64,000 nucleotides of DNA, from contig NZ_CP019630.1 of assembly GCF_001999245.1 (NCBI RefSeq), forward strand, positions 6,085,398 to 6,149,397, in the 5' to 3' direction. Each line of letters starts with the position of its first letter. Position 1 is the first letter of the stretch. Position numbers and translations under genes: made by a program. This document shows, piece after piece, positions 20,550 to 54,609 of the stretch. The notes beneath the pieces were generated by a model. The model saw nothing but the letters and a program-made list of their open reading frames with translations. It was not told where the DNA came from and ran no database searches. Origin of the DNA: Roseibium algicola. GTDB taxonomy: Bacteria; Pseudomonadota; Alphaproteobacteria; Rhizobiales; Stappiaceae.

Positions 20550-20586
20550 GTAGCGGATAGAGGCCTTGGTGGCGGGAATAGCTCAC

Positions 20587-21783: not shown

Positions 21784-21846
21784 TCCGGTCATTATTCGCT
21801 GTTTTCCGCCCAATACAGTCTTGGCAACGCCACAATCTGCGGCCAT

Positions 21847-22038
21847 ATGCGCTTCATGAAGTCACCTTGTATCAACATCTGCCAGATCGACGCCAAATCA
21901 GGCCTTTGCGCAGGCTGCCTGCGCACTCTTGACGAAATCGCGTCCTGGGCGAGTTACAGTGAGGCCAAGCGCAACCAGATCCTCGCAGAATTGGCGAACC
22001 GGCCTCAGTCGACCACTCCACCCGGAGTGCGAGGATGA
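21847..22038 (+). CDS. DUF1289 domain protein
   Basis: This 63-residue protein has the DUF1289 pattern SPCINICQID...GLCAGCLRTLDEIASW, four Cys that probably bind a metal or Fe-S centre, and the EIASW end. An alternative ATG lies three codons in. Its last four bases overlap the start of the aspartic protease gene (ATGA), an arrangement that implies coupled translation. Function is unknown. The family is common in proteobacteria. Confidence 0.85.
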   Translation: MRFMKSPCINICQIDAKSGLCAGCLRTLDEIASWASYSEAKRNQILAELANRPQSTTPPGVRG

Positions 22039-22748: not shown

Positions 22749-22773
22749 GCGGATCGGGAACCGCGCGATAGTC

Positions 22774-23775: not shown

Positions 23776-23898
23776 TTTTCTTCAACTGCAAGGAACTGGC
23801 TCCGGACGTCCACCGTCCAGGCTGGACACGCAGTGAGGTGCGTTATCCAAGTTTGTTCTCATGTCGACCGACTTTAGTAGACGCGAAATAACAAATTT

Positions 23899-23919
23899 CG
23901 GAGCTTTTCAAAAGCTCCG
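23899..23919 (-). terminator. Hairpin ending the peptide operon, with the PPTase stop codon in its loop
   Basis: On the minus strand CGGAGCTTT-TGA-AAAGCTCCG forms a 9 bp stem whose 3-base loop is the TGA stop of the phosphopantetheinyl transferase gene. An AAATTTGTTATTT stretch follows, which is only moderately T-rich. It is the only clear stop structure between the cluster and dusA. Confidence 0.55.
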
Positions 23920-24609
23920 CTTTTCACAAAGGATGATTTCAACGTCCCTAGCGTCTATTCCGCCAAAGACCGCCAGCGCGACACGCCAGTGCCCTGGACG
24001 CCGGCTGATCTGGAAGGAACTGGCCGGACGGCGGAGGTCGGGCGGCGCAGAAATAGCGATGTCCCGATCGTCAGCCAAGGTAAAGCTGACGGTGGTCAGA
24101 TCGGCTGTAATGCCCAGGCCAACAGCTTTCAGATACGCCTCTTTCAGCGTCCAGAAATCCAGAAATCTGGAGGTCTTGTGAGCTCCTTCAACCTTCGCCA
24201 GCTCTTGTCTTTCTCCGGGTGAACAAACGTCGCGCATCAACATGTCTACTTCGACCGCACGCTGATCCGTTTCCGCATCAATGCCGATCACGCTCTTCCT
24301 CGTCACGGCGCAGGCAACCAGGCCACGTGTATGCGTCAGGCTGAAGTCGAGGTCTGACCGTCCGGCGACTGCCGGCTTTCCCGCAGCCATTGGCACGAAC
24401 TGCCAGTCGCGCGGTGCCGTACCGGGTTCCAGATCACTCAGGGTTTTCCGCAGCAACGCATGTGCAAGCGCGTAGTCCTTCCGGTCCTGATCGAAATGAA
24501 ACGCATGAAACCGCTGTAGTTCATCCTCCGAGAGAATTTCCAGCGCAGATTCGAGATCCTCGGAGCTGCAGCCGGTCGTCTCCAGAATGATCGCCTTGGT
24601 GCCTGGCAA
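23908..24609 (-). CDS. 4'-phosphopantetheinyl transferase (Sfp-type)
   Basis: This 233-residue protein has the Sfp-family motifs LDFSLTHTRGLVACAV near residue 90, VIGIDAET with the Mg-binding Asp/Glu near 110, and FLDFWTLKEAYLKAVGLGI near 150. It transfers phosphopantetheine from CoA onto the conserved Ser of carrier domains and should activate the four T domains of the NRPS. The start appears to be TTG at 24609, with GGGAG six bases upstream. No in-frame ATG precedes the first motif. It is last in the cluster, 111 bases after the exporter gene. Confidence 0.9.
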   Translation of the reverse strand: MPGTKAIILETTGCSSEDLESALEILSEDELQRFHAFHFDQDRKDYALAHALLRKTLSDLEPGTAPRDWQFVPMAAGKPAVAGRSDLDFSLTHTRGLVACAVTRKSVIGIDAETDQRAVEVDMLMRDVCSPGERQELAKVEGAHKTSRFLDFWTLKEAYLKAVGLGITADLTTVSFTLADDRDIAISAPPDLRRPASSFQISRRPGHWRVALAVFGGIDARDVEIILCEKRSF

Positions 24610-24720
24610 GTTAACTCCCGGAACTCTGGAGATGGTAATCGGAGGGCAGACTGTTTCACCCTGTTGAGAAGTGACCTGGACACTGGCCAGGCCCTACCGT
24701 CAAGACCTCAGCCGAAGGTT

Positions 24721-26361
24721 TCAGACCGTGGCATCAGCCGGACTGGACACCTTGCTGATCCTGCCTTCTTCCATCCAGACGATCTTGTCTGCAACATCGA
24801 AATACCGGTCGTCATGCGTGATCGCGATGACTGTGCGGCCCTCTTTCTTCAGTTTCATTAGGAAATCTGTATAGAACCAGCGCCGATACTCCGGATCCTG
24901 ATCGGCGGCCCATTCGTCAAAGAGGTAGACATCCCTGTCTTCCAGCAGGGCAACGACCATGGCGAGCCGCTTTCTCTGGCCGGTGGATAGGTTCGTCGTG
25001 CTGAACCTGTTGTTCCGGTAGTGAACCTTCTCGTCCAGTTTCATGTCTTCCAGCAGGTCGTAAAGCTTCTGCTCGTCCGTCAGATCCACACCATAAAGCC
25101 GGTCGAAGAGGTGGAAATCGGAGAAGATGACCGAAAACAGGCTGCGATACCGGTCGATGTTTTCAGGTTTGACGACCTTGTCGTCCCAAGACAGATGACC
25201 GCCATCCGGCTCATAGAGACCGGTCAGGATCTTCGCGAGAGTCGACTTGCCGCTGCCGTTGCCCCCCACGATGAAGACCATTTCGCCCGATGCAATTTCC
25301 AGGTCACAAGGCCCGATCGAAAACGGGCGGTCGCCATCTTCGCTATGATAGGTGTAGGCAATCTTCTTCAGGGATATACCTTTGGAAAGCCTTGCCTGCC
25401 GCACTTCGCTGCGCTCATTCATGGCTTCGCTGTGTTTTTCCAGAAGCTCTCTCAATTCCTCGATATTGGACACCGCCAGATTGGCACGCGAAACCACCGG
25501 CAACATGCGGATGATCGAGGTGATTGCGCCGCTGGCAAAGACGATCACCGTGACAATCTTGCCTGGGATCGAGAGGTCCGACACATAAAACGGTATCGCA
25601 AAGACCAGCGTTCCCATGAGCGTATAGAAGAAGACATCACTGACAGACTGGCCATAGTTGAAGGAGCGGCCGGATTCCACACGTAGATCCTCGACCTGCT
25701 CTGATCGCGGAATGATGTAGTTGTGGAAGAGATCGTCGCTGCGCTGCGCGTTCAGTTTCACTTCCTTGAAGCCGCTGAGAATATTCTCGAAGCTGTTGTG
25801 AAAGGCCTGTTCGCTCAGGCTTGCCTGGCGCATCAGTTCCTCCGCATCGCGGTAGCTCTTGCGATAGAAGAAGATGGCGCCGGCCAGAAACGCCAGGGTG
25901 ACGACAAAGGCAAGCGGCGAGAGATAGCAGATGTAGAGCGCCGACATGACCAACTGCATGACGAAATAGATCAGACCGACAAGCGCAGGCGCTGTTTCCT
26001 CGATTGTCTGATGGTCACGACCAACTGCTGCCCTGATACGCGTCAGGCCGATTTCTTCTACGGTTGCGAGGTTCAGACTGCGGACTTGCGCGGTCACCCG
26101 GATCCGCAAGCGACACAGATAATCGGCGATGATTGCGGTTGCCATGTTGAGGGCGCGATTCATCGTGAAGAGAACGGTCGCGCAGCCAAGCACGAAGAGA
26201 CCGAGATACTGCCACTGCAGACCGGTGTTCTGCTGATAGTTCGTCACCGCGTTGATGACGGCGATGATCAGCCCCATGACCAGCCCGGGCACCAGGGAAA
26301 GCAGCAGGAAGGTGCGTTTGCTGTCGCCCGCTTCACGATACAAGAGACGAAAGAAATTCAT
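24721..26361 (-). CDS. ABC exporter of the cyclic-peptide type (SyrD/PvdE-like)
   Basis: This 546-residue half-transporter has six membrane helices over residues 15-290 and then a nucleotide-binding domain. The Walker A is GGNGSGKST (near residue 367), the signature LSTGQRKRLA and the Walker B DVYLFDEWAADQDPEYRR. The DEWAADQDP variant after Walker B is typical of siderophore and lipopeptide exporters such as PvdE and SyrD. It probably homodimerises in the inner membrane and exports the NRPS product or a precursor to the periplasm. Confidence 0.88.
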   Translation of the reverse strand: MNFFRLLYREAGDSKRTFLLLSLVPGLVMGLIIAVINAVTNYQQNTGLQWQYLGLFVLGCATVLFTMNRALNMATAIIADYLCRLRIRVTAQVRSLNLATVEEIGLTRIRAAVGRDHQTIEETAPALVGLIYFVMQLVMSALYICYLSPLAFVVTLAFLAGAIFFYRKSYRDAEELMRQASLSEQAFHNSFENILSGFKEVKLNAQRSDDLFHNYIIPRSEQVEDLRVESGRSFNYGQSVSDVFFYTLMGTLVFAIPFYVSDLSIPGKIVTVIVFASGAITSIIRMLPVVSRANLAVSNIEELRELLEKHSEAMNERSEVRQARLSKGISLKKIAYTYHSEDGDRPFSIGPCDLEIASGEMVFIVGGNGSGKSTLAKILTGLYEPDGGHLSWDDKVVKPENIDRYRSLFSVIFSDFHLFDRLYGVDLTDEQKLYDLLEDMKLDEKVHYRNNRFSTTNLSTGQRKRLAMVVALLEDRDVYLFDEWAADQDPEYRRWFYTDFLMKLKKEGRTVIAITHDDRYFDVADKIVWMEEGRISKVSSPADATV

Positions 26362-26407
26362 CGAAGACCAGGCGCTCCAGGTGGATCATCACCGTTTGAG
26401 AAATATG

Positions 26408-26617
26408 TCAGTTCAGGGCAGCATCCCGAAGGCTTTTCGGGCGGATGTCGGTCCAGTTGGCGTTGACGTAGTCCACGCAGTCCTGCCGCTTGCCGGGGCC
26501 GAAGACCGACCGCCAGCCATCGGGAATCGGCACGAATTCGGGCCAGAGAGAATGCTGTTCCTCGTCATTCACCAGCACATGGAAAATGCCGTCCGGATCG
26601 TCGAATGGATTTGTCAT
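26408..26617 (-). CDS. MbtH-like protein
   Basis: This 69-residue protein has the family signature: [33 protein letters not shown], then [16 protein letters not shown], with the conserved Trp residues in place. MbtH proteins bind NRPS adenylation domains and are often needed for their solubility or activity, particularly tyrosine-activating ones. The ATG at 26617 follows GGGAGAGACGGCG. An upstream in-frame codon adds five non-family residues. It lies 24 bases after the hydroxylase gene, inside the operon. Confidence 0.93.
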
Positions 26618-26641
26618 CGCCGTCTCTCCCAACCTTGCGCG

Positions 26642-28192
26642 TCAGTCTTTCCACGCCGTGTTGCACCAGCCGAATTCATCATAATCATCAAGGCACTGGT
26701 CAACAAGCGACAGCATCTGGTCCATTGAACCGTCGCGCCGTGCGATTGCAGGAAGCTGCAGTTTCACCTCTTCATGATTGCCGGCATAATTGCGCTCGTA
26801 AAGCTCGTGACGCCCTGCAAATTCCGAGCCCGTGGCGTCCCACAGCAGCTTCATCAGCTTGATACGGTCCTTGTAGCCAACGCCGTTGGAGCCGCGCACG
26901 TACCGTTCCAGATAACCGTCGATTTCAGGGTTCTGGAAATCCTTTGCGGAAGACGGCAGATAGATCAGCGCGGACGCGACGATCTTTTGGACAATCTCCT
27001 TCACACGACCGTAGGCATCGGGCGCAAGCGCGCGATAGGCCTGCGCGGCCGATAGTCCAGGCAGGAAAGCGCCGTCTGCAAAGGCTTCCGGTGTCCGGGC
27101 CATTGCATCCGACAACGACCAGAACAGGTGACGCAGGGCGATCACCTCCCCTTGCAGAACCTGATTTCCGCGAAACTCGTCACCACTGGTGATGTGCAAC
27201 GCCCTGGTCAGCAGACCGGCGAGAAAGTCCAGCTTCACCGCAAACCGGGTGCATCCGTGGAAACAGGTGCCTTGCAGGTAGCCCGTGTCCATCAGGAAGT
27301 CGATCGGCTTGTGTGCAGGCCCATAGACCAGCACGTTCTCCCAGGGCACGAAAACGTTGTCGAGAACGAGAATGGCGTCGTTTTCGTCGAAGCGGGAAGA
27401 CAGCGGACTGTCGAACGGCGTCGAGGATTGGCTCGCCGCATATTCGTAGGAGTTCCGGCAGATCAGCTTGATGCCCGGCGTCGACATGTCGAGAAAGAAC
27501 ATGAAAGCCGTAGGCGGTTCGTTGGTTTCCGAGACCGCGTGGTGGCTGAGAAAGTTGTAGTGGGTCAGTGCTGCCGAAGTCGCGACAACCTTTGCACCTG
27601 AAAGATAAAGCCCCGCGTCTGTTTCCTTGACAACGTGAACCAGGATGTCTTTTGCATCGCTGAAAGGCTTCGCCCGGTCAATCGGCGGATTGGCCACAGC
27701 ATGGTTCATGAAATAGGTGCGCTGCTGAGCCAGATGATACCAGCAACGCGCGTTGTCTGCGAAAGGCCCATAATAGGCCGCGTTGGCTTCCAGCGTGTTG
27801 ACGATCGCTGCCTTGTAGTCCGGTGAGCGCCCCATCCAGCCGTAGCTCATCTTTGCCCATTCCGCGATCGCCTTCTGTTGACCGAGCAGGTCCTCTGCCG
27901 ATCTGGCCACCTTGAAATATCGGTGTGTGTAACCGGTTGGATCGGCATCGGCAGGTGCGGTCAGGACATTGGTGCCGCTATCGTGATCCTGATGCAGGGC
28001 ATCGTAAAGCCGTGCCAGGGAACGTACCGAGTTGCGAAAGGCAGGATGACCCGTCAGGTCGGTCACCCGCTCTCCATTGAAATAGACACAGCGCTGGTCC
28101 TGGAGACTGTCGATGAACTCCGCGCCGGTCATGGGTATCGCGCGCTGTACAGCGTGTTCAGGTTCCACGGGATTGAGGATATCAACCGACAT
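26642..28192 (-). CDS. HpaB-type FADH2-dependent phenol 3-monooxygenase
   Basis: This 516-residue protein is of the size of 4-hydroxyphenylacetate 3-monooxygenase large subunits and has their segments: MTGAEFIDSLQDQRCVYFNGERV at the N-terminus, ILVHVVKETDAGLYLSGAKVVATSAALTH near residue 175-205, and AILVLDNVFVPWENVLVYG near 270. Relatives such as SgcC hydroxylate tyrosine rings on carrier proteins. With the Tyr-type module of the adjacent NRPS, ortho-hydroxylation to a DOPA-like residue is the likely role. The start overlaps the NRPS stop by 11 bases and uses a GGGAG site inside the NRPS gene. No flavin reductase lies nearby. Confidence 0.86.
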   Translation of the reverse strand: MSVDILNPVEPEHAVQRAIPMTGAEFIDSLQDQRCVYFNGERVTDLTGHPAFRNSVRSLARLYDALHQDHDSGTNVLTAPADADPTGYTHRYFKVARSAEDLLGQQKAIAEWAKMSYGWMGRSPDYKAAIVNTLEANAAYYGPFADNARCWYHLAQQRTYFMNHAVANPPIDRAKPFSDAKDILVHVVKETDAGLYLSGAKVVATSAALTHYNFLSHHAVSETNEPPTAFMFFLDMSTPGIKLICRNSYEYAASQSSTPFDSPLSSRFDENDAILVLDNVFVPWENVLVYGPAHKPIDFLMDTGYLQGTCFHGCTRFAVKLDFLAGLLTRALHITSGDEFRGNQVLQGEVIALRHLFWSLSDAMARTPEAFADGAFLPGLSAAQAYRALAPDAYGRVKEIVQKIVASALIYLPSSAKDFQNPEIDGYLERYVRGSNGVGYKDRIKLMKLLWDATGSEFAGRHELYERNYAGNHEEVKLQLPAIARRDGSMDQMLSLVDQCLDDYDEFGWCNTAWKD

Positions 28193-31100
28193 TCTTTAGT
28201 CTCCCTTCCGCAACGGCCTGCCTGAACGGCTGATCGCCAAGGTTCATCAAAGCATTCAGCCCCTCGCCGATTTCGCAAAGGGCCTGCTGCGATGTCATTT
28301 CATGGTGTGTACAGTCGAGTCCGTGCGCCTCGAATTGTCCGTTTGTCCGGTTTTCCCAGGGATCGGCCTCAACACCCAGCATACGCTTCGTATTGTTCGA
28401 AGCGTAATGCACCAGGGGACAGTTTAACGTCTTGGGCCGATAGCCATGTGCGAGCAGCGCGTTGTTTCGGGCGATCCGCAGCATGTTGTTGAAGTCGACT
28501 GGGCTGAGGTCTGCCAGAGGATGGGCACTGTCTTCCAGAAATCTCCGGACATCCTCAAAGGAAACGTCTTCGGGTACGCGTACATGCGGATCGAAGCCGA
28601 TCATTTCAAGGAACGCACCGCGCGCTCCACTATCTGAAAGATCCGGCAACGGGTCTTCTTCGTGCATCGGATAACTGTCCAGAAGAATCAGGAACTCGAC
28701 GTCTCTGCCGCTTTCTTCCAAAAGACGTGCCATTTCGAAGGCAGCCAGCCCTCCGAACGACCAACCAAGCAACCGAACCGGGCCCGTGCTGGCCACCTTG
28801 TTGACACTTGCGACGTAATCGGCCGCCATTTGGTTCAGCGTTGAAGGCAAAACGGCCTCGCCGATGTAGCCGCGCGCCTGAAGGGCGATGATCGGGACAT
28901 CGGCTGGCAGGACGGAAGCAAGACCGGCATACGTCCAACCAAGACCGAAGCCCGGATGAACGCAGAATAGTGGCGCCTGACATCCTGCCCGCCGGATCTG
29001 CAGCACCGGCTCCAGCAAACCGGTCTTGCGACCTTGCCCGAGCGACAGCAAACCGCGCACCGTCGGTGTTGCGAAAATATCTCGAAGGCTGACGTCCAGC
29101 CCCATGCGTTCCTTCATCAGTGCCTTCAGGCGTGCGGCGAGCAGCGAATGCCCCCCCATATCAAAGAAACTGTCTTCCGGTCCCGGCACTACGCCGGGCA
29201 GCAGTTCAGCGAAGAGATTGCACAACAACGTTTCCTGGAGTGTTGCCGGACTTGTTTCTCCCTGTTTCCAGACAGGATCCGGCAGCGCCAGACGGCTCAA
29301 CTTTCCATTTGGTGTCAACGGCAATTCCGGGAGTACGATAAAAGCGCCAGGCACCATGTAGTCAGGCAGGTTTCGCTGGAGCACGGAACGAAGCTCAGCA
29401 GTTTTGAGTTCAGCCCCTTCTTCCGGAACAACATAGGCAACGAGCGAAGAACCTCGCGCTCCATCCGGCCGGTCCAAGACCACCGCCTTCGCAATGTTTG
29501 TCATCGATGCGATAGTCGCCTCGATCTCGCCAAGCTCGATACGATGGCCTCGGATCTTGACCTGGCTGTCTCCGCGTCCCAGGAACACAAGCTCACCGTT
29601 GCTTCTGCGATAGACCGTGTCCCCGGTCCGGTACATGCGCGCTCCATGGCCTGCAAACGGATCGGCAACAAAGCGTTCGCTCGTCAGGTCCGAACGCCCG
29701 TGATAGCCACGTGCGAGCCCAAGCCCGCCGATGTAGAGTTCGCCGGAAATACCTTCGGCGACAGGCTGAAGGGTCTCATCAAGTACGTAGACCTGCGAGT
29801 TCCACAAAGGTTGCCCGATAGACGGAATGCCTGAACTTTCGGTGCGAACAGATGCGCTCACAGACCAGATCGTTGTCTCGGTCGGGCCATAGACATTCGT
29901 CACCGGCCCTGCGGCTTGCAGCTGCGACGCTAGTCCGCCGTCCAGAGCCTCACCGCCCACAAGAACCTGCAAACGCGGCAGTGGCCCAACCTCCAGAAGC
30001 GACCGCCAGAGCGATGGCGTTGCCTGCATGACCGTTGGTTTTTCCTGGCCGATCCAGTCATGGAGGCGATCCGCTTCGCGCTGATTGCCTTCAAACAGCA
30101 CTACGCCTGCACCAATCAGCAGCGGGCCGTAGAGCTCAAGCCCGGCAATGTCGAACCCGATCGTGGTCGCGCTGAGCACCTTGTCCTGCGGCAGAAAGCG
30201 AAGCTCGGTACTCAGGCAACACAGAAGGTTCTTGAGCCCCTCGCGTGTAACGACGACACCTTTCGGCTTACCGGTCGAGCCGGACGTGTAGATGACGTAG
30301 GCCGGGTGCTCGGGATCAATCGGCTGTTTCCGGTCGGCATCGGTCGGGGCCGAAGCGGACATTGCAGCCAGCTCAACACCGGTCACCTCGGCATCCAGCA
30401 GCAGAAGCGCCGATGTCGGCGCACCGTCCGTCAAGGCGGCTGCCGTTGCCGTCTCGGAGATCACAAGACGCGGCGCGGCATCGTCCAGCATCATCGCAAT
30501 GCGGGCTGCCGGATAGTCCGGATCCAGCGGCAGATAGGCGGCGCCCGTTTTCAGCACCGCCAGCAGCGCCACGATCATGTCCGGGTTTCTCGGTAAGGCA
30601 ATCGCGACCCGGTCCTCAGCACCAATGCCGCGCCGGATCAGAAGATGCGCCAGCCGGTTTGCCCGTGCCTCAAGCTCGGCATAGGTCAGCCGCTCCGTGC
30701 TGCCGATAACCGCTTCCCGCGTTCCAAACCGGGAAGCCGTTGCGGAGATCAGCTCCGTCAGATCCCCTTCCGGCAAGGCGTGCCGTGTTGCGTTCCACCG
30801 GTCTTGCACAGCCTTTCTTTCAGAAGCCGGCAGCATCTCGAGAGATCCGAGCGGCGCTTCCGGGCGGGAGGCCATCTGCGCCAGTACATTGCACAACTGC
30901 CCAAGAAGACTGCGGCCAAGGTCTCCGCCGATCCTTTCTTCCCGGCAATCCAGCCGCAGCAGCAGCCGTTTGCCCGGAACAACCATCAGGCTCAAAGGAT
31001 AATGGGTCTGGTCATGCACCTCGACACCGCTGATCCGCAGGCCATCCGGCGAAGCCTCATGGGTCTCGTCGCTGAAGGGATAGTTCTCGAACACCACCAG

Positions 31101-32169
31101 CGTGTCGAACAGGTCTCCAAGTCCCGCTTCTGCCTGGATCTCCGGCAGCCCCAGATGCTGGTGCGGCAGAAGTGCGGCCTGACGGGACTGCAGCTCCTTC
31201 AGGAAGGCGGTGACGGGTGTTGCCGGAACAGGCTTTGCCCTTACCGGCACGGTGTTGATGAAGAGACCCGCCATGGTTTCGACGCCGGTGATCTCGGCAG
31301 GTCGGCCGGAGACCGTCGTGCCGAAGACCAGATCATCCCGCCCGCAGATGCGGCCAAGCACGACCGACCAGGCACCCTGGAGCACCGTGTTCAAGGTGAT
31401 GTCCAGCGTGCGGGCCAGGCCTTCCAAGGACCGGGTTGCGTCCTCGCTCAGGAGATCGTCAAAGCGCAGCACCGCACTGCCTTCACCTGACGAGGAGCCG
31501 GTGGACGTGTTTGCAGACTGGCCACAGACAGAGGCCGCCAGCCGGGTCGGTTCTTCCAGACCGGACAGAGCTTCTTGCCAAGCCGCTTTCGCAGCCTTCT
31601 TGTCCTGCTGCTGCAGCCAGCCGAGATACCGGTCAAACGGCGTTACAGGCGGCAGCCCCCCTGCCCCGCCGGCTTCATAAATCTCCTTCAGCTCCCGCAT
31701 CAGCACCGGCAGCGACCAGCCGTCGAGAAGAATGTGGTGATTGCTCAACACCAGCCACGCACCGCCGTCCGGACGTTTTACGAGGCAGACACGCAGCAAT
31801 GGACCTTGAGCAAGGTCGAAACGGGTCTTCCTGTCTTCCCGAAGCAAGAGATCCAGCTCCGCTTCCGGATCTGCGTCCTCGGACAAGTCCACCTGCTCAA
31901 ACGGCAGCTCGACTTTCGACAGGACCACCTGAACGGGATCGCTCAGGCCTTCGTGGCAGAAGACGGCCCGCAGAGGTGCGTGCCAGGCAACGAGAGCCTG
32001 AAGGCTCGCCTCAAGACGCTGCGCATCCACCGGGCCATCCAGGCTGACCACCGTCTGCACCTTGTAGGCATCCTCACCCGTCTCAGCGTCCATCAAGGCG
32101 TGAAACAGCAAACCCGACTGAAGGCCCGTCAACGGCCACACCGTCGATAGCAAACCGCCGTAGCGTTGA
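28182..32169 (-). other. NRPS module 4: C-A-T-TE, Gly-like specificity and release
   Basis: The C domain (about 3260-3685) is of the type that accepts a D-configured donor, as expected after the epimerase. The A pocket reads D-I-L-Q-V-G-V-I-W plus Lys, close to the glycine code DILQLGLIWK. A T domain and type I thioesterase follow (CVHPGFGLGW, GWSFGG nucleophile, THHEM for the histidine). The thioesterase could release a linear acid or close a small ring. The sequence does not say which. Confidence 0.7.
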
Positions 32170-38100: not shown

Positions 38101-41100
38101 TGAATATTGCGGTGGCTGATCGCGATCCCCTTCGGCTTGCCTGTGGAGCCGGAGGTGAAGAGAACGCAGGCGATCTGTCCACTGGCGATATTCGGTAAGG
38201 TCTCCTTTCCCGCCGCCACTTGCAGGTGGCTGAAAGGAACGCAGGGTGCATCATTGAAACTGACTGATATCGCGTCTTCACTGTCGGTCAGCACGAGGTG
38301 GGCCCGGGTGTCGGCAACAAGTTGTTGAAGTCTGTTGGCAGGATCGTTCCTGTTCAAGGGAACATATGCCCCGCCTGCCTTCACGATCGCGAGCGTTGCG
38401 ACGACAAGATCAATGGAACGGTCCATCAGGACCGCGACCCGCGCCCCGGGTGCAACACCCCGGCGGAGGAGGTTTTGCGCAACGCGGTCCGACAATGCAT
38501 CGAGCTCGGCATAGGAAAGCGTGCGGGTCTGGCTGGAGAGAGCGACCTTCTCGCCCTTTTCCCTGGCCAACAGACGAAACCGCTCGGGCAAAGCCATTTC
38601 GATCGCAGCTTTTTCGACCTGCTCGCCTTCGCACAAGGCGGCAAGGCGTGACGCTTCGTCGGGATCGACAATCATGAGGTGGTCGATCCGTTTGTCGGGA
38701 TTTTCCACGGCTGCGCGAAGCAGATCGATGAAACGCCGGGAAATATTACCCGCAACCTCCCGATCCAGGAGATCTGTCCGGAATTCGATCCGCCCGTCGA
38801 TACCGCCTGCGCCTCCGACCTCGTCGCGATGAGCAGTCAGGTCGAAGGAAAGATCGAACTTTGAGGCTTCGACAGGCACGTCTTCAACTTCGCAGTCCAA
38901 CCCCGGCAAGGTAAGAACAGTCTCTCCTGCCATATCGAGCGCCAGAACGGTCTGGAACACCGGATGAAAGGACAGGTCCCTGCGTGGAGCGACCTTGTCG
39001 ACCACGAGCTCGAATGGCACGTCCCGGCGGGAATAGGCGGCAAGGTTCCGCTGACGCGTATCGGCCAATAACGCGCGAAAGGTCGGCCTGCCGGAAAGAT
39101 CGCTCCGGAGCGCCAGCATGTTGACGAAGAGGCCTATGGTTTCTTCGAAAGAGCTGTCCGGGCGGCCATCGACAGGCGTTCCGATGACGATGTCTTCCCC
39201 TGCGCCGAGCCGCGACAAGGTCGCAGCCATCGCAGCCTGCAGTACCATGAACAGGCTGGTCCGAGTTTCCATTGCCAGTCGCTCAAGCTTGCAATGAAGC
39301 TCTGGCGGGATCGCGACGGCTACTCCGTCGCCTTGCCAATAGGTATTCTTTCGTTGCCCCTCGGCACAAGGCAAATCAACGCAATCCGGAGCGCCAGCGA
39401 GGTCTTCGCTTGCTTCGGCAAGACGAGCGGCAAGTTCCTGTTCTGCTGCCTCGGACAGCCGGGTATGCTGCCAACTTGCGAAGTCGGCATATTGGACTGC
39501 CGGCTTTTGCCAGACAGGTTCCTTGCCGCTCATTCTCGCCGCAAAGGCCGTCTCGAAGTCGGCAAGCAATGGGCGCAGGGCGCCACCGTCAATCGCGATA
39601 TGATGCACAACAATCTGCATCATGCATTGCGGTTCAGGACCGAAATTTTCGTCCGTAACGATGGACACTCTCACCGGCAGGTCCTTGCACAGATCGAACG
39701 GCCTGGAAGACTGACGGGTGAGTTCTGACCGGCCTTCAGCTGCCGGTACTGAAACAATCCGGATGACATCTTCCGAAACGAAACCCGTACGGATGTCCTG
39801 ATACGGCGCTCCGACCCCGTCTTGCGGATAAACGGTCCTCAAGACTTCGTGCCTGTCGATAACGTCTGACCAGGCTTGCCCAAGAACGGACGGATCGACA
39901 GCACCGGAAAGCCGGAAGCGGTAGACCAGATTGTAGGAAGTATCTTCCGGGTGAAGCCGCTGCAGGAACCAGAGACGCTTTTGAGCAGAAGACAGCGGAA
40001 GCTTGTCGGGTCGCGCAACGGATTTCTGTTTCAGGGAACATGGTTTCGCTGCCCCTATCAGACGGGCAAGCGCAGCCGGTGTCGGCGCGTCGAAAATCTC
40101 GCCTGGAGCGATCTGTACGCCAAAACGGTCTCTCAGTCGATATGCAAGACGAGCGGCCAGCAGTGAATGCCCACCCAGGAGAAAGAAATTATCATGGACT
40201 GAAACCGAGTGGACGCCGAGCAGCTCTGTAAATGCCTCACAGATTGCGGTTTCAAGGTCGCTCTGCGTTCCGCTTGCGCTCCGTCTAGCCGTCGGCACCG
40301 GATCCGGCAACGCTGCCCTGTCCAACTTGCCATTGGGTGTGAGCGGAAGTGCATCGAGAGCCATGATCGCCGACGGCAGAAAAGCTGGAGGGAGAGCTTC
40401 TGCCAAGGCGGCCATAAGCCTTGCGATATCCTTGTCGGCTCCCACTTCCCAGACAACATAGGCAGCAAGATAGACGTCCGTGTTGTCAGGTCGCTTCGCA
40501 ACGACAGCCGAACGGGCAACCTCCGGCAATCTGTCCAGGGCTGCTGCGACCTCTCCCGGCTCGACACGGACGCCGCGTATCTTCACCTGATGGTCGGAAC
40601 GCCCCAGATACTCGTAGCCACCGTCAGGCATTCGCCGCGCAACGTCGCCTGTTCTGTAAAGCAAGGCACCAGCGGGTCCGAACGGCGAAGCTATGAACCG
40701 TTCTGCGGTCTTGTCCGGTTGGCGATGATATCCAAGCGCAAGACCTGTGCCGGTTATGTAGAGTTCACCGGTCTCTCCGTCGGAGACAGGCTGAAGCAGA
40801 TCGTCGAGCAGGTAGACGACTGTTTCCCGTATAGGGTTGCCGATGGCAATTTTCCCGTCTGCTTCACATCGCGCCCAGAGGCTGTCCCCCGCAGCTTCTG
40901 ACGCACCGTAGAAGTTGAACAAGCGGGCGTCTGGCAGTTTTTCGCAGAATTTTTGCAGAAGACTTGATGGTAGAGGCTCGCCACTCGTGACCCAGGTCCG
41001 GCAGACCTTCAAGTCTGGCAAACAGTCGTCCTCGAGAAGACTTGCCAGCAGGCTCGGCACAACGGTCAACCGCGTGACGGCAAACGTCGCCACCGTCTCT

Positions 41101-41924
41101 GCCAGTCGCCTCGGGTCAGCGGAAACATTGCCGGTTGCAAGGACGACCGCACAGCCATTGCACAAGGCGCCCAACAGCTCCGTCGACCCGTCAATGAAGT
41201 TCAAGGAGGTCTTGAACAGCGTTCGCTCACCTGGCGCGAAGGGCAAGGCTTCCGATATCCAGGCCAGCCTGTTGGCAAGAGCGGCCTGCCGCCCGAGAAC
41301 GCCCTTGGGCCGCCCGGTGGAACCGGACGTATAGACCAGATAGGCAGGATCATCGCCAGTCAGCCGGCGAACAAGATCACCACCCACAGGTGCGGTATCA
41401 GGCTGTCCGGCGATGTCCCGGCTCAGCGAACCGTTTCCGAGAAAGACCGCCCGCGCTGTCTGACCAGCCGCCTCAACGACGCCGGCGACCGGTTGTTCCG
41501 CAAGGATCAGATCCGGTTCTGCGTCTTGAAGCATGTCAATCAGACGCTGTCGAGGATAGGTCGGATCGAGCGGCATGTAGCACGCTCCGGTCTTGATCAC
41601 GCCCAGCAGGCTTACGACGAGGTCCGGCCCGGTAGCACAGCCGAGTGCCACGATCTTGCCAGGCCCGATACCCCGGCCGATGAGGTACCACGCGACACGG
41701 TTCGCCTTCCGGTCCAGTTCCTCGAAGGTCAGAACCTTATCCGGCAGTATCAGTGCCGTGTCACCAGGTCTCGACTTCACCTGCCTGGCAAAAAGTGCGC
41801 GAACAGAATCAGTCTCATTGTCCGATGTTGCTTCCAACGGCAAATGGCTGGCATCCGGACGCGCAATGCTGCCTGAGGCAGCCTTTGCCCTTGCTGTCTG
41901 GAAACCACTTTCGCGGGATGTCAT
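28182..41924 (-). CDS. Four-module nonribosomal peptide synthetase (A-T / C-A-T / C-A-T-E / C-A-T-TE)
   Basis: This 4580-residue assembly line covers 13.7 kb. The carrier serines lie in GGHSLL, GGDSIL, GGDSIS and GGHSLL (near residues 583, 1641, 2713 and 4255). The four adenylation domains have SGSTGxPKG loops. Condensation histidines (HHxxxDG) are near 775, 1848 and 3395, the epimerase copy (HHLVIDGVSW) near 2908, and the thioesterase GWSFGG near 4385. It has no N-terminal condensation domain, so module 1 starts the chain. Reading the pockets gives unknown - Val-like - D-Tyr - Gly-like, a tetrapeptide released by the TE. ATG 41924 has GGAG nine bases upstream. The next gene overlaps its end by 11 bases. 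Modules 3 and 4 carry a nearly identical C/A segment. Confidence 0.93.
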   Translation of the reverse strand: MTSRESGFQTARAKAASGSIARPDASHLPLEATSDNETDSVRALFARQVKSRPGDTALILPDKVLTFEELDRKANRVAWYLIGRGIGPGKIVALGCATGPDLVVSLLGVIKTGACYMPLDPTYPRQRLIDMLQDAEPDLILAEQPVAGVVEAAGQTARAVFLGNGSLSRDIAGQPDTAPVGGDLVRRLTGDDPAYLVYTSGSTGRPKGVLGRQAALANRLAWISEALPFAPGERTLFKTSLNFIDGSTELLGALCNGCAVVLATGNVSADPRRLAETVATFAVTRLTVVPSLLASLLEDDCLPDLKVCRTWVTSGEPLPSSLLQKFCEKLPDARLFNFYGASEAAGDSLWARCEADGKIAIGNPIRETVVYLLDDLLQPVSDGETGELYITGTGLALGYHRQPDKTAERFIASPFGPAGALLYRTGDVARRMPDGGYEYLGRSDHQVKIRGVRVEPGEVAAALDRLPEVARSAVVAKRPDNTDVYLAAYVVWEVGADKDIARLMAALAEALPPAFLPSAIMALDALPLTPNGKLDRAALPDPVPTARRSASGTQSDLETAICEAFTELLGVHSVSVHDNFFLLGGHSLLAARLAYRLRDRFGVQIAPGEIFDAPTPAALARLIGAAKPCSLKQKSVARPDKLPLSSAQKRLWFLQRLHPEDTSYNLVYRFRLSGAVDPSVLGQAWSDVIDRHEVLRTVYPQDGVGAPYQDIRTGFVSEDVIRIVSVPAAEGRSELTRQSSRPFDLCKDLPVRVSIVTDENFGPEPQCMMQIVVHHIAIDGGALRPLLADFETAFAARMSGKEPVWQKPAVQYADFASWQHTRLSEAAEQELAARLAEASEDLAGAPDCVDLPCAEGQRKNTYWQGDGVAVAIPPELHCKLERLAMETRTSLFMVLQAAMAATLSRLGAGEDIVIGTPVDGRPDSSFEETIGLFVNMLALRSDLSGRPTFRALLADTRQRNLAAYSRRDVPFELVVDKVAPRRDLSFHPVFQTVLALDMAGETVLTLPGLDCEVEDVPVEASKFDLSFDLTAHRDEVGGAGGIDGRIEFRTDLLDREVAGNISRRFIDLLRAAVENPDKRIDHLMIVDPDEASRLAALCEGEQVEKAAIEMALPERFRLLAREKGEKVALSSQTRTLSYAELDALSDRVAQNLLRRGVAPGARVAVLMDRSIDLVVATLAIVKAGGAYVPLNRNDPANRLQQLVADTRAHLVLTDSEDAISVSFNDAPCVPFSHLQVAAGKETLPNIASGQIACVLFTSGSTGKPKGIAISHRNIQALALDGCWPEGSHERVLLHSPYAFDASTYEIWTPLMLGQELFIAPPGILDAETIARLVEERKVSAACITTRLFNIIAGEKPEAFKPLRSVLIGGEAASAEALRRATAASPGTRFVNGYGPAEGTTFVTWHAMHTLEKSAHKVPIGLPRDNCSVRILDDRLQPVGIGMVGELYLAGDCLTLGYLDRTGLTAERFVADPVGPAGSRMYRTGDLVRWRSDGLLTFVGRADHQVKINGFRIEPQEIENAIGRQSDIGQCTVIVREDRPGEKKLVAYVVGTGTGEPDLAGLRKRLAETLPAFMVPAHFVLLEQLPFTTNGKLDIKRLPAPEIHGDGAKVPAGQTETDICALFADVLGLETVGPADNFFALGGDSILSIQLVSRARRAGLVFSARDVFSNKTPAELATVAQRQQLPEIGTDLKSGWISEEDLSIVSSRYGSLLSTVWPLTGLQSGLLFHALMDAETGEDAYKVQTVVSLDGPVDVQRLESSLQALVARHAPLRAVFCHEGLSDPVQVILSKVELPFEQVDLSEDADPEAELDLLLREDRKIRFDLAQDPLLRVCLVKRPDGGAWLVLSNHHILLDGWSLPVLMRELKEIYEAGGAGGLPPVTPFDRYLGWLQQQDKKAAKAAWQEALSGLEEPTRLAASVCGQSANTSTGSSSGEGSAVLRFDDLLSEDATRSLEGLARTLDITLNTVLQGAWSVVLGRICGRDDLVFGTTVSGRPAEITGVETMAGLFINTVPVRAKPVPATPVTAFLKELQSRQAALLPHQHLGLPEIQAEAGLGDLFDTLVVFENYPFSDETHEASPDGLRISGVEVHDQTHYPLSLMVVPGKRLLLRLDCREERIGGDLGRSLLGQLCNVLAQMVSRPEAPLGSLEMLPASERKAVQDRWNATRHALPEGDLTELVSATASRFGTREAVIGSTERLTYAELEVRANRLAHLLIRRGIGAEDRVAIALPRNPDMIVALLAVLKTGAAYLPLDPDYPAARIAMMLDDAAPRLVISETATAAALTDGAPISALLLLDADATGSELAKMSASAPTDADRKQPINPAHPAYVIYTSGSTGKPKGVVVTREGLSNLAYAQIERFAISEQSRVAQFASFSFDAAFSEIATALVSGATLVIWPRQAFTDPAALKTFMYAQRVTHITLSPSLLSVMSTTDLPEGCVLVTAGEAISVPEVRRWSDRCCLVNAYGPTEVTVCGSMSLPLTPVQEGDIAPIGLPIWNSSLYVLDQTLQPVPNGVAGELYIGGAGLARGYQNLADLTSSRFVADPFAGAGRRMYRTGDLVYRAEDGNLFFLGRSDAQVKVRGRRIEPGEIERVLLERSDVAQCLVSVYSDRKGASRLVAYVIGQERSDPSAEELQRYCADRLPDYMVPAQIDLLPYLPRLPNGKIDRKALPAPSRPQRAEETRRQSPAEQAVAAAFAETLGITPPTLDDSFFGLGGDSISAIRLVGLLRRKGLKATPKDVFDHKTVSKLASVARTLEGPEVNELKEFEPDTVLPTPILRWFAELGGPADGFFQSTCLMLPKGVNAEFLQTALGAIVQRHGMLRARANKTTPAMKIGPVAEFTDVFPIKHISLSEVENENGLKDLLEEQHAAAVEALSLSRGKVFSAIWFDRGHMEPGLLLLVAHHLVIDGVSWRILSEDLRTAWDDWSADRPISLEPESTSFPGWSRLLQADAASDARVSEEGYWSALLSSGTERFLAGDLDGKQDTVQTLKSLASLLSAEETEQILTRLPALYSCGPQDVLLAALGLAVGAFKTSRFGKPGGAILCDVEGHGREAIGDADLSRTVGWFTSVFPARLEVTTAGNGISGMSDADLKQLIIEIKEQASARPDHGLGYGMLRYLNKESSAKLASENKAQIAFNYLGRFPAGAGGAWSAAPFFGGMRGGFDPATPLAHMLSIDCQAIEEEKGFCLHTEFGFASRHLSEKEIAEFRALWEEALIRLAAHGNWSKAGGQSPSDFPLVAVSRADVDLLVQRYGGLLSTVWPLTGLQSGLLFHALMDAETGEDAYKVQTVVSLDGPVDAQRLEASLQALVAWHAPLRAVFCHEGLSDPVQVVLSKVELPFEQVDLSEDADPEAELDLLLREDRKTRFDLAQGPLLRVCLVKRPDGGAWLVLSNHHILLDGWSLPVLMRELKEIYEAGGAGGLPPVTPFDRYLGWLQQQDKKAAKAAWQEALSGLEEPTRLAASVCGQSANTSTGSSSGEGSAVLRFDDLLSEDATRSLEGLARTLDITLNTVLQGAWSVVLGRICGRDDLVFGTTVSGRPAEITGVETMAGLFINTVPVRAKPVPATPVTAFLKELQSRQAALLPHQHLGLPEIQAEAGLGDLFDTLVVFENYPFSDETHEASPDGLRISGVEVHDQTHYPLSLMVVPGKRLLLRLDCREERIGGDLGRSLLGQLCNVLAQMASRPEAPLGSLEMLPASERKAVQDRWNATRHALPEGDLTELISATASRFGTREAVIGSTERLTYAELEARANRLAHLLIRRGIGAEDRVAIALPRNPDMIVALLAVLKTGAAYLPLDPDYPAARIAMMLDDAAPRLVISETATAAALTDGAPTSALLLLDAEVTGVELAAMSASAPTDADRKQPIDPEHPAYVIYTSGSTGKPKGVVVTREGLKNLLCCLSTELRFLPQDKVLSATTIGFDIAGLELYGPLLIGAGVVLFEGNQREADRLHDWIGQEKPTVMQATPSLWRSLLEVGPLPRLQVLVGGEALDGGLASQLQAAGPVTNVYGPTETTIWSVSASVRTESSGIPSIGQPLWNSQVYVLDETLQPVAEGISGELYIGGLGLARGYHGRSDLTSERFVADPFAGHGARMYRTGDTVYRRSNGELVFLGRGDSQVKIRGHRIELGEIEATIASMTNIAKAVVLDRPDGARGSSLVAYVVPEEGAELKTAELRSVLQRNLPDYMVPGAFIVLPELPLTPNGKLSRLALPDPVWKQGETSPATLQETLLCNLFAELLPGVVPGPEDSFFDMGGHSLLAARLKALMKERMGLDVSLRDIFATPTVRGLLSLGQGRKTGLLEPVLQIRRAGCQAPLFCVHPGFGLGWTYAGLASVLPADVPIIALQARGYIGEAVLPSTLNQMAADYVASVNKVASTGPVRLLGWSFGGLAAFEMARLLEESGRDVEFLILLDSYPMHEEDPLPDLSDSGARGAFLEMIGFDPHVRVPEDVSFEDVRRFLEDSAHPLADLSPVDFNNMLRIARNNALLAHGYRPKTLNCPLVHYASNNTKRMLGVEADPWENRTNGQFEAHGLDCTHHEMTSQQALCEIGEGLNALMNLGDQPFRQAVAEGRLKNVG
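30236..32165. repeat. 1.93 kb near-identical repeat, copy in module 4 (C domain to A3 motif)
   Basis: This segment matches 34877-36806 with a constant 4641-base offset at both ends, so there is no net insertion or deletion. The encoded 640-odd residues differ at about 17 places by my count. It covers the whole C4 domain and the N-terminal part of A4 up to GVVVTREGL just after the A3 motif. Confidence 0.92.
32170..36809 (-). other. NRPS module 3: C-A-T-E, D-tyrosine
   Basis: The C domain (about 1712-2135, HHILLDGW) and the first part of the A domain nearly match module 4. The A pocket reads D-A-S-T-V-A-A-V-C plus Lys, one of the published tyrosine codes (DASTVAAVCK). The E domain (about 2768-3222) has HHLVIDGVSW, CDVEGHGRE and SRTVGWFTSVFP plus NYLGRF, the full epimerase set. 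The bound tyrosine, or the peptide ending in it, is therefore converted to the D form before module 4. Confidence 0.82.
34877..36806. repeat. 1.93 kb near-identical repeat, copy in module 3 (C domain to A3 motif)
   Basis: This is the partner of 30236-32165. Similarity starts at the beginning of C3 (YGSLLSTVWPLTG) and stops abruptly after the A3 motif of A3. The next residues, which hold the substrate pocket, differ strongly between the modules. The third and second A domains do not share this level of identity. Confidence 0.92.
36810..40014 (-). other. NRPS module 2: C-A-T, Val-like specificity
   Basis: The C domain covers about residues 643-1075, with HHIAIDGG. The A domain (about 1115-1590) has the pocket D-A-Y-C-I-G-G-T-F plus Lys. 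This differs from the known valine code DAFWIGGTFK at two places, notably Cys for Trp at the third-shell position, which would enlarge the pocket. A branched or small hydrophobic residue is likely. The carrier is GGDSIL. There is no epimerase, so the residue should stay L. Confidence 0.6.
40015..41924 (-). other. NRPS module 1: loading A-T, unassigned substrate
   Basis: The adenylation domain covers about residues 42-555 and the carrier domain follows. Aligned by eye to GrsA, the pocket reads D-G-E-V-V-S-F-G-D plus the A10 lysine. I cannot match this to a known code. The A4-A5 region (NFIDGSTELLGAL and FYGASEAAGDSLW) is clearly different from modules 2-4, including an altered GASEA in place of the usual GPTE. 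The starter could be an unusual amino acid. The C2 domain that follows expects an aminoacyl or acyl donor. Confidence 0.75.
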
Positions 41925-41994
41925 TGAGATCAACTCCGTCGAAGAATTGCCGTTTCTGTTTTGCTTGTCCGGCCGAAACCGAATTGAAATATCG

Positions 41995-43338
41995 TCAGCC
42001 TTGCAGCCCGAGGCGCTGCCTGAGTGTCAAAGGGTCGTGCCCCGCCGGCCGTACGTGCCCTCGCTGGCGGAGAATTGGCACGACGGAGCGGGAAAACTCG
42101 TCAAAGCTTCCGGGAAAGTGGGTCGGGGTAATCACGAAGCCGTCGCAAGCGCCGCTTGTAAAATAGCTCTCAAGCTGATCGGCCACCTGTTCCGGCGTTC
42201 CGACAAGACGCGGCGTCGACGTGCTCCGCGCCATCCGAATGGCAATGTCGCGAAGCGTCCAGAGCCTTCCCCTGTCCTCTTCCCGGATCCTCTCCAACCA
42301 GGGAAATGCGGCTCCGCCATCGACAGCCGCCTTGTTTGGCGACTTGCCAGAACTCTCCAACACCTTGTCGATTGGCGTATCAGGATCGAAACCTGTCGCG
42401 TCGACGCCGATCATGCCCGACAGAAAGGCGATGGCGACATCCGGATGGATCAGCTCGTCCAGATATTCGGCCCGCGCTTTTGCAATGGCTTCGGTTTCAC
42501 CGATCACAGGCTGCACCGCCGTCAGCAGGAATATCTTCTCCGGGTCGCGCCCCATCTCTGCAGCCCGGCGGCGAACATCGGCACGCAGTTCCGACATGCC
42601 CTCGGCATCTGCCTGAATGGCGAAAACGACATCAACCCATTTGGCGGAAAAATCACGACCCCGCGGAGAAACGCCGACACTCATCAGGATCGGTTCACCG
42701 TCCGGTCCGGCGGGAAGTGACAAGGGACCTCGAAGTTTGAAGCGTTCGCCTTCGTGATCAATGGGATGGATCTTGCCGGTGTCCGCGTAAAGCCCGGACG
42801 CCTTGTCGCTTACCAGCGCGTCCGGTTCCCAGGACTTCCAGAGCTTGCGGCAGATCTCCAGGATCTCTTCCGCCCTGTCATAGGCTTCGGGAGAAATGAG
42901 CTTTGGGAAATGACCGAAATTGTGCCCGTTGCTCGGACCAGCGGAGGTTACGACATTCCACGAGATCCGGCCCCTGCTGAAATGGTCCAGCGTACTGAGC
43001 GTACGGGCCAGATGATAAGGTTCCATGTAGGTGGTCGATAGCGTGACGGTAAAACCGAGCGACTTCGTTACCGAGGCCATGAGGGAAACCAGCAGGTTCG
43101 GGTCATGGCGAATGGCACCAACCGCACCGTGTTTCAAAAAGGTTTCGTAGTTGTCGTTCAGTCCGGTTGTCACGCTGAGCGATTCTGGAATGAATGCGAG
43201 GTCGAACCCGCCCCGTTCCAATGTGACCGCCGTATCCTTGAAGAGATCGGGATCACAGAAATCCGTTTCGCTGTACGGGTGGCGCCACATGCCGGCGAAA
43301 TGGCTTCCAGGCACCAGAATATACCCGGCCAGAAACAT
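41995..43338 (-). CDS. LLM-class flavin-dependent monooxygenase (NtaA/SnaA/DszA type)
   Basis: This protein of about 447 residues shows the NtaA-group features GSHFAGMWRHPYSE at the N-terminus, TLERGGFDLAFIPES near residue 45, STTYMEPYHLARTLSTLDHFSRGRISWNVVTS around 105-135, and RAEEILEICRKLW near 160. Such enzymes use FMNH2 supplied by a separate reductase to oxidise small organics or, in peptide pathways, amines and carbons. The start is uncertain: ATG 43338 is given, but TTG codons at 43365 (after GGGGGG) and 43377 would keep a few more family-like residues. It lies 70 bases before the NRPS start. Confidence 0.82.
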   Translation of the reverse strand: MFLAGYILVPGSHFAGMWRHPYSETDFCDPDLFKDTAVTLERGGFDLAFIPESLSVTTGLNDNYETFLKHGAVGAIRHDPNLLVSLMASVTKSLGFTVTLSTTYMEPYHLARTLSTLDHFSRGRISWNVVTSAGPSNGHNFGHFPKLISPEAYDRAEEILEICRKLWKSWEPDALVSDKASGLYADTGKIHPIDHEGERFKLRGPLSLPAGPDGEPILMSVGVSPRGRDFSAKWVDVVFAIQADAEGMSELRADVRRRAAEMGRDPEKIFLLTAVQPVIGETEAIAKARAEYLDELIHPDVAIAFLSGMIGVDATGFDPDTPIDKVLESSGKSPNKAAVDGGAAFPWLERIREEDRGRLWTLRDIAIRMARSTSTPRLVGTPEQVADQLESYFTSGACDGFVITPTHFPGSFDEFSRSVVPILRQRGHVRPAGHDPLTLRQRLGLQG

Positions 43339-43377
43339 ATGACGATTTGCAACACCAGAACTCAAATCACCCCCCAA

Positions 43378-43538
43378 GACCGGCTTTAAGCAAAGTAATC
43401 GATCGTTTAAATTCGCTACCTACTCACTTTTCATTCTCATGACCTAACGGCAATAAAAAACAATTCACGAATTTTTCGCAGAAGATAAGTTAATTTTTAT
43501 TCACATTCGTCGTTCAACATATCTCTTTTCGACGTTTA
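43378..43538 (-). promoter_or_regulatory. AT-rich gap, probable promoter region of the NRPS operon
   Basis: These 161 bases between the methyltransferase stop and the monooxygenase start are far richer in A/T than the flanks, with several A- and T-runs. No single -35/-10 pair or dyad stands out. A promoter for the monooxygenase-NRPS-hydroxylase-MbtH-exporter-PPTase run is the simplest reading. Confidence 0.4.
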
Positions 43539-44210
43539 CTAAATTTTTCGAAAAACCCTCAGGGTGTTGCCGTAAAAGACCCTTGGTATTTCGAGACTCT
43601 CGACCAGTTCAAAGCCCGCAGCCCTTACCTGCTTCTCAACTTCTGCGGTTTTCACCTGCTTCACCCATTCACCGGAAAAAATCAGGTCATCGATATTGTG
43701 GGCCAGGCGGCGCCAGAAAGGTGCTTCGACCATATCCTTGAAAAGAAACACTCCTGCGGGACCGACCCGTTTGATCGCCTCTTCAACAGCCGTCATCCGT
43801 TCAGGTTCGGCAACATGGTGCAGCACGTCGACCATGGTCACCACATCGAAGCAGTCGTCCGGCAGCTCCGCGAAGCTGCCAATTCGCAGGAAGGATACTT
43901 CCGCTGAGTGCCCCGTTCTCCCCGCTGCCTTGCGGGCCGAGGCAAGAGCGCCTTCGTGGACATCGCAGCCGGTTGCTTCGCTTATCCTTCCGGATGCCAG
44001 CAGAATCGCCAGCAACGCGCCATTGCCGCAGCCTACATCCAGAACCTTTGCATTTGCTGGAACATGCCGCTCCATCTCTTCGAATGGGCAAACGTAGGGC
44101 CTGGCGGAGATCAGCTTGCGCAAGAGCCTTGGCTCATAATCGTAAAGGTCGAAAAGGAACCGGCTAAGGTCCTTGCGATCGAAACTGAATGACTCTGTGC
44201 TGGCTGACAC
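43539..44210 (-). CDS. Class I SAM-dependent methyltransferase
   Basis: This 223-residue protein has SAM motif I VLDVGCGNGALLAIL near residue 56, an acidic motif II (ATGCDVHEGAL), DVVTMVDVLHHV for motif IV near residue 118, and GVFLFKDMVEAPF. GTG 44210 with GGGAG six bases upstream is the start. It is first in the run of minus-strand genes leading into the NRPS, so O- or N-methylation of the peptide is plausible. The 160-base AT-rich gap after it means cotranscription is not certain, and it could be an independent gene. Confidence 0.78.
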   Translation of the reverse strand: MSASTESFSFDRKDLSRFLFDLYDYEPRLLRKLISARPYVCPFEEMERHVPANAKVLDVGCGNGALLAILLASGRISEATGCDVHEGALASARKAAGRTGHSAEVSFLRIGSFAELPDDCFDVVTMVDVLHHVAEPERMTAVEEAIKRVGPAGVFLFKDMVEAPFWRRLAHNIDDLIFSGEWVKQVKTAEVEKQVRAAGFELVESLEIPRVFYGNTLRVFRKI

Positions 44211-47057: not shown

Positions 47058-47155
47058 GCGGGTCTCTCTGTCAAAGATGGATCAGTTTGAACTGCCGGAT
47101 GCTAGCCTCCGCTAACGATGCTGACCAGATGACCTTGGCCTTCAATTGTCCGTCG

Positions 47156-54603: not shown

Positions 54604-54609
54604 TTTCGA

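Follow-up and report, generated by a model that had tools for sequence, protein, structure and literature searches.

We analysed a stretch of 64,000 nucleotides from the Roseibium algicola genome (6.65 Mb in 3 contigs), hereafter called the window, which carries a non-ribosomal peptide synthetase (NRPS) cluster and, read divergently from it, a gene for a prohibitin-like SPFH protein that travels with the cluster. Seven minus-strand genes form the cluster, and an earlier note made from the DNA letters had claimed as much; all seven lie where it placed them, and their families are borne out by domain or family matches. In order of transcription they encode a class I S-adenosylmethionine (SAM) methyltransferase (43539-44210; domain match), a luciferase-like flavin monooxygenase (LLM) of the NtaA/SnaA/DszA family (41995-43377; TIGR03860), a four-module NRPS of 4583 amino acids (28182-41933; domain search), an HpaB-type two-component flavin hydroxylase whose gene overlaps the NRPS stop (26642-28192; PF11794/PF03241), an MbtH-like protein of 69 amino acids (26408-26617; PF03621), a cyclic-peptide-type ABC exporter (24721-26361; TIGR01194) and an Sfp-type 4'-phosphopantetheinyl transferase (PPTase, 23908-24609; Pfam ACPS). 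The SPFH/Band_7 membrane protein (44492-45622, plus strand; PF01145) is followed by a DUF697 protein (45723-46301, plus strand; PF05128) and an EutQ-like cupin (46704-47057, minus strand; PF05899), and the whole system lies in an accessory island with approximate ends at 23947 and 47115.

Module order and predicted peptide

The synthetase possesses four adenylation (A), four condensation-type, four carrier (T) and one thioesterase (TE) domain, in the module order and with the release domain of a modular NRPS (A-T-C-A-T-C-A-T-E-C-A-T-TE, where C and E are the condensation and epimerization kinds). We re-read the pocket codes of the four A domains by alignment: IDTTVSFGDK for A1 (40230-41783, minus strand, as are all domains given here), DAYCLGGTFK for A2 (37059-38567), DASTVAAVCK for A3 (33837-35378) and DILQLGVIWK for A4 (29211-30737). 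By comparison with known codes, we take A2 to be Val-like, A3 to select Tyr and A4 Gly, and a condensation-type domain of the E kind follows A3 (32256-33623). The chain ends with a thioesterase domain (28188-29048; GWSFGG motif), which agrees with the release step proposed in the earlier note. That note had also predicted a peptide of unknown, Val-like, D-Tyr and Gly-like residues; the last three positions hold, while the first now appears as a beta-amino-acid type. Our naming of Val, Tyr and Gly also draws on how antiSMASH and PRISM were reported to read a Labrenzia aggregata cluster that matches this one (PMC7321072).

These codes are well kept among relatives. The A3 code is identical in all six copies read and that of A4 is identical or one residue apart, while a V/I exchange is the sole difference in A1 across the five copies where it was read. 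The A2 code is constant in four Roseibium copies and differs in Caballeronia sp. NK8 and C. glathei, where it reads DAYLLGCVFK.

In A1, Asp235 is absent and an Asp stands at position 236, which is the sequence pattern of an A domain activating a beta-amino acid. This rule comes from beta-alanine domains, Asp235 being the residue that binds the alpha-amino group. The pattern occurred in only 5 of 765 A domains from the 120 NRPSs listed, namely in one R. aggregatum copy and four Streptomyces proteins. These Streptomyces NRPSs (P0220, P0221, P0228 and P0231) carry a code the same or nearly the same as that of A1 in their last A domain. A literature search with the pocket-code strings found no paper, and in the available part of the PARAS paper beta-alanine appears only as a legend mention. 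A beta-Ala-like first residue is suggested by the pocket of A1, and the predicted peptide is therefore probably beta-Ala-like - Val-like - D-Tyr - Gly, with the Tyr hydroxylated by the HpaB-type enzyme. AFC-BC11, a tetrapeptide containing a beta-amino acid, was considered as a match and rejected, as its machinery is described, in the portion of the source available, as having no condensation domains (PMC12186527).

Module 2 is anomalous in that a carrier of the type that precedes E domains (GGDSI) is joined to a D-donor-type condensation domain (C2, 35439-36788) with no E domain between them. We compared condensation domains from 120 NRPSs (mostly actinobacterial, obtained from one search) together with those of the window, NK8 and C. 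glathei. A D-donor-type opening motif was seen in 8 of 641 C domains standing directly after A-T, and four of the eight are the C2 domains of this cluster family (those of the window, the R. aggregatum protein P0200, NK8 and C. glathei); the other four, three in P0156 and one in P0177, all lack GGDSI. This GGDSI carrier is the commonest kind before E domains in the sample. In 4 of 630 cases it stood ahead of a C domain lacking E, and every one of the four belongs to this cluster family. The D-donor motif is not strict, given that of 34 C domains following an E domain, 14 are of D-donor and 14 of L-donor type. Among the 15 nearest neighbours of C2 are 11 post-E C domains, two E domains, one C domain after A-T and one first C domain, as compared with 12 C domains after A-T among the 15 nearest to C1. 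Judged from sequence, there are three possible readings: the residue loaded by A2 is D-configured or achiral, an E domain acts from elsewhere, or C2 tolerates an L residue.

The likeness of C2 to C4 (30798-32147) bears on this choice. The two domains are 98.4% identical as protein in the window and 93.6%, 93.7% and 95.1% identical within the genomes G002 (R. aggregatum IAM 12614), G017 and G035, while orthologues between these Roseibium genomes are 70-90% identical. In the DNA of the window, twelve successive bins of 150 columns from about residue 1740 are 89-100% identical and later bins 35-63%; the near-identical tract takes in the greater part of C2, reaches into A3 and ends before the A3 pocket. 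On these comparisons C2 and C4 have evolved in concert in Roseibium, by gene conversion or by repeated duplication. It is conceivable, at somewhat under even odds in our judgement, that module 2 tolerates L-Val and that C2 owes its D-donor type to a past duplication with C4, so that residue 2 would be ordinary; the 98.4% identity here and the 94-95% in three other Roseibium copies favour this. In NK8 and C. glathei, however, the identity between C2 and C4 is no higher than 52 and 51%, yet C2 is still of the D-donor type and the GGDSI carrier is retained.

The tailoring enzymes and the exporter were also placed by family. The LLM enzyme scores 424.8 bits against TIGR03860 (cut-off 279.7), and hence belongs to the same family as the flavin monooxygenases DszA and SnaA, with DszA (5tlc) as its closest solved relative; a listing of 120 homologues opens with 33 that are at least 49% identical, and below these come 84 at 47% or less together with three shorter ones that reach 52-61%. 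The exporter lies above the cut-off of the cyclic peptide exporter family TIGR01194 (355.7 bits against 286.2). The hydroxylase, whose closest solved relative is a chlorophenol monooxygenase, stays below both HpaB equivalog cut-offs (641.6 against 885.2 for TIGR02310; 277.5 against 480.2 for TIGR02309), and by these scores it is HpaB-like and not to be filed as a 4-hydroxyphenylacetate 3-monooxygenase. Its residues R122, Y126 and H164, which we take from solved HpaB to be the flavin-oxygen site, are invariant in 13 of 13 aligned sequences, its own included. In a midpoint-rooted tree of 125 sequences, the six cluster HpaBs fall in one 18-leaf group (support 0.184) with 12 further homologues whose genomic context is unseen; a dedicated HpaB lineage of the cluster is only suggested, because of this low value and these 12 homologues.

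Distribution, insertion site and the SPFH partner

The gene order methyltransferase-LLM-NRPS-HpaB-MbtH-exporter is common to G002, G017, G035 and NK8, in which the NRPS is 84, 69, 66 and 42% identical, respectively, to that of the window. The NRPS frames are open over 4393-4583 amino acids in four Roseibium copies and NK8. An R. aggregatum NRPS, P0200, which represents 56 member sequences, is 96% identical over residues 1-1100. The methyltransferase is kept in the four Roseibium copies read and in NK8, the DUF697 gene in the same four Roseibium copies, and the PPTase is also present in G002 and G017. The cupin is aligned in R. aggregatum and shows no DNA alignment in G017 or G035.

We reached NK8 by plasmid searches with the LLM and HpaB proteins, and C. 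glathei DSM 50014 by an HpaB genome scan. On plasmid pNK81 the NRPS has 4393 amino acids and four modules in the domain order of Roseibium, and its companions are similar to those of the window (SPFH 54-58, methyltransferase 46, LLM 55, HpaB 67, MbtH 63 and exporter 51% identical). In C. glathei, NRPS-HpaB-MbtH-exporter was read, with the SPFH and LLM genes just upstream on the same contig, and the NRPS agrees over the part covered, from A2 to TE. In two Caballeronia loci the cluster is succeeded by another MbtH and another NRPS, the latter opening with a C domain (L145:37985-41296 and L066:13589-19385); between these two genes, NK8 has a 298-amino-acid gene that, to guess from its sequence start, resembles a JmjC/cupin hydroxylase.

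HpaB was found at 92% identity or more in 4 of 61 relatives searched (own included), ten others having matches of at most 34%, and LLM at E 1e-115 in 2 of 397 genomes of the order to which the window belongs, namely its own and G002. The LLM has further homologues, 55-66% identical, in sources named Chelatococcus, Microvirga brassicacearum, Pseudomonas palleroniana and Burkholderia sp. SFA1. The NRPS stands beside HpaB in 2 (L065 and L066) of 80 HpaB loci kept from genome contigs out of 578 confirmed, several of which are on short contigs. Further condensation domains are encoded on the second contig of the R. algicola genome itself (131348-137260 and 308805-311648), with an LLM homologue (34%) at 316070 near the second group.

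The SPFH protein scores 95.4 bits against PF01145 (cut-off 23.6) and possesses the SPFH domain. All seven solved sequences that it matches are prohibitins (best 51 bits), and its scores against HflC models, 27 and 21 bits, are below the cut-off. Among 45 Roseibium genomes, LLM at 86% identity or more was found in five, and the same five have an SPFH protein of at least 75% identity; some SPFH match exists in 23 of the 45, and none exceeds 41% identity among the 40 non-carriers. Likewise, LLM at E 1e-100 is present in 8 of 58 Caballeronia genomes and the same eight have SPFH at E 1e-30, while the 50 non-carriers showed no SPFH match at this threshold (weaker matches were not displayed). The SPFH gene adjoins the LLM end of the cluster divergently in all 13 LLM carriers (5 Roseibium and 8 Caballeronia), with a gap between SPFH and LLM that measures 1109-1121 bp in the Roseibium genomes and 1455-1523 bp in those of Caballeronia. 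Chance values for the co-occurrence are 8e-7 and 5e-10, although they assume independent genomes and so overstate the case.

Flank comparisons indicate where the island was inserted. Window positions 18639-23946 and 47116-52000 align to stretches of genome G026 that lie 195 bp apart, representing an empty site. Thirty dusA loci, all short (at most 4.0 kb), were compared. In 8 of them, that of G035 included, dusA has one of the tested right-flank genes at a distance of up to about 1.5 kb; the other 22 have none of the tested right-flank genes and include those of the window and G002, where the cluster is carried. From the 195 bp in G026 and the closeness of a right-flank gene to dusA elsewhere, we place the island at approximately 23947-47115. 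In G017 and G035 the cluster lies megabases from dusA, and SPFH and DUF697 still stand divergently beside the methyltransferase. Hence, of the core genes by which the cluster had been thought bounded, dusA holds, being present in 45 of 45 genus genomes, but SPFH was rejected as a core boundary since it moves with the cluster in these two genomes and is tied to LLM in 13 of 13 carriers. It had also been claimed that no mobility genes are in view; none is among the annotated block genes, but the block has been inserted, with dusA on one side and the genes to the right of 47116 on the other. As regards a mobile-element origin, a short-word comparison of the island ends found no shared exact repeat longer than 9 bp, and no search was aimed at integrases. 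The GC fraction of the island is 0.583, compared with 0.576 and 0.584. Just outside the island, a 300-amino-acid protein with a peptidoglycan-binding domain is encoded (window 47156-48058), and a 90% homologue stands beside dusA in G026. Further to the right, cytochrome bd oxidase subunits I and II adjoin two ABC transporter genes (window 53446-60147), an ordinary arrangement.

Proposed function, precedents and alternatives

We propose that the locus is a self-contained peptide-making island with a constant SPFH accessory, and put the probability of this proposal, with the mechanism as follows, at about 0.6. The PPTase would activate and the MbtH-like protein support the single NRPS, which is predicted to build beta-Ala-like - Val-like - D-Tyr - Gly. 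The HpaB-type enzyme may hydroxylate the Tyr ring, free, carrier-bound or within the peptide, to give a DOPA unit, and the LLM enzyme and methyltransferase would tailor the molecule further before the TE domain releases it as an acid or a ring and the ABC protein exports it. The SPFH protein, whose gene is read divergently from the shared intergenic region, would most likely be a membrane scaffold or a self-protection factor in the synthesis or export of the compound.

Several points weigh against this proposal. Module 2 is at odds with a plain L-Val reading, and the A2 pockets of Roseibium and Caballeronia differ, so that their products may differ as well. The PPTase has no match in the G035 region or in the 41-kb NK8 stretch, and DUF697 has none in the latter. 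Both oxygenase families need reduced flavin, and no PF01613 flavin reductase lies in the window, the genome having four elsewhere. The co-occurrence counts are not independent, as the carrier genomes are related. LLM and SPFH were located in all 13 carriers, whereas the reading of the whole cluster covers 5 of them (four of the five Roseibium carriers, and NK8), with C. glathei read in part. Beta-Ala at residue 1 depends on a pocket code, and for the first A domain of the matching cluster PRISM gave Ser and antiSMASH no name (PMC7321072).

That matching cluster shows that the island has already been sighted in print. In the available portion of a 2020 paper, Labrenzia aggregata USBA 371 is described as possessing an 'NRPS-T1PKS' cluster to which no product is assigned and which shares with the one in the window the number of A domains, four, and the presence of E, TE and PPTase; it was read by antiSMASH as nrp-Val-Tyr-Gly, with full Stachelhaus matches for Tyr and Gly, and by PRISM as Ser-Val-Phe-Gly, and the most similar known cluster had 4% similarity (PMC7321072). 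The match is by description only, and this portion of the account holds no beta-amino-acid reading, SPFH protein or Caballeronia homologue. Another study reports that five L. aggregata strains have a chromosomal NRPS in common, whose similarity to a known cluster is 2% (PMC8712697). Literature searches on Labrenzia/Roseibium NRPS and Caballeronia NRPS found no product. A peptide cluster with an unassigned product, as first proposed, is supported, and no known product could be named from these searches, but the cluster itself was already in print without one.

The SPFH pairing, too, has been noticed singly in print. In Thalassobaculum sp. OXR-137, a prohibitin gene on genomic island GI13 adjoins an NRPS/PKS cluster whose exporter is of the type found here, and the authors consider that the prohibitin may interact with the cluster; likened by description only, that cluster differs in having 12 NRPS and 3 PKS modules over 95 kb in one genome (PMC12016528). 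In a figure legend on the palmerolide cluster, a stomatin-like Band7 gene appears alongside genes for LLM, PPTase and ABC transporter, as here, although the cluster is a trans-AT PKS-NRPS of another kind and the Band7 gene is likened by description only (PMC8739492). In the balhimycin system, proximity labelling found an SPFH protein (paraslipin) near the exporter Tba, and a membrane microdomain was suggested as an anchor of biosynthetic enzymes, which counts for a scaffold role; balhimycin is a glycopeptide system (PMC11960670). We found no report of the pairing as a conserved, co-inherited part in literature on SPFH with NRPS self-resistance (the first 15 of 258 entries, none of which contains the word SPFH) and on prohibitin or stomatin with clusters. 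Novelty is therefore limited by the L. aggregata cluster and the Thalassobaculum prohibitin; what is new is that the prohibitin-like partner is constant across two genera from different classes, and to this come the first module of beta-amino-acid type, the D-donor module lacking E, the homologous cluster in Caballeronia and the empty site.

As an alternative explanation, a siderophore or metallophore, in which a catechol from HpaB-made DOPA would chelate iron and the exporter would secrete it, is unlikely. The HpaB-type enzyme would suit such a compound, as would the exporter family TIGR01194, to which PvdE belongs, and one HpaB homologue is named pyoverdin chromophore PvcC; however, only one catechol is predicted, no receptor gene is among the ten annotated block genes (the search for receptors was confined to these genes), and in L. 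aggregata strains the NRPS described as turnerbactin-like is a separate one on a plasmid (PMC8712697). We consider it about equally improbable that SPFH and DUF697 hitch-hike beside the cluster and have nothing to do with the peptide: neighbours do vary, as the DUF697 protein unmatched in NK8 and the cupin unaligned in G017 and G035 indicate, but SPFH in Caballeronia is 54-59% identical to the window's protein and in the same divergent place, and it is present in all 13 LLM carriers. Least probable is a degenerating or silent cluster. No product was found for it in the literature, and the USBA 371 paper, in its available part, states that its NRPSs do not explain the isolated peptides (PMC7321072), but the long open frames in both genera and the conserved pocket residues argue against decay.

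The island is real and conserved, and its product may carry ecological weight. A further-reaching idea, which we regard as a long shot, is that peptide assembly lines have SPFH/prohibitin-like proteins as dedicated components, which form a membrane ring or microdomain that unites synthetase and exporter, where the peptide would be finished and pushed out; in a bolder form, membrane assemblies of the SPFH type would be what the peptide acts on, and the copy in the cluster would be its resistance partner. If true, the sightings in Thalassobaculum, palmerolide and balhimycin would represent one recurring principle. The E-less D-donor module 2, together with the near-identical C2 and C4, offers a natural test of how strict the stereocontrol of condensation domains is. 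Moreover, with a constant prohibitin-like partner in Roseibium and Caballeronia and similar pairings in print, a role of SPFH proteins in peptide synthesis becomes testable in a cultured marine bacterium.

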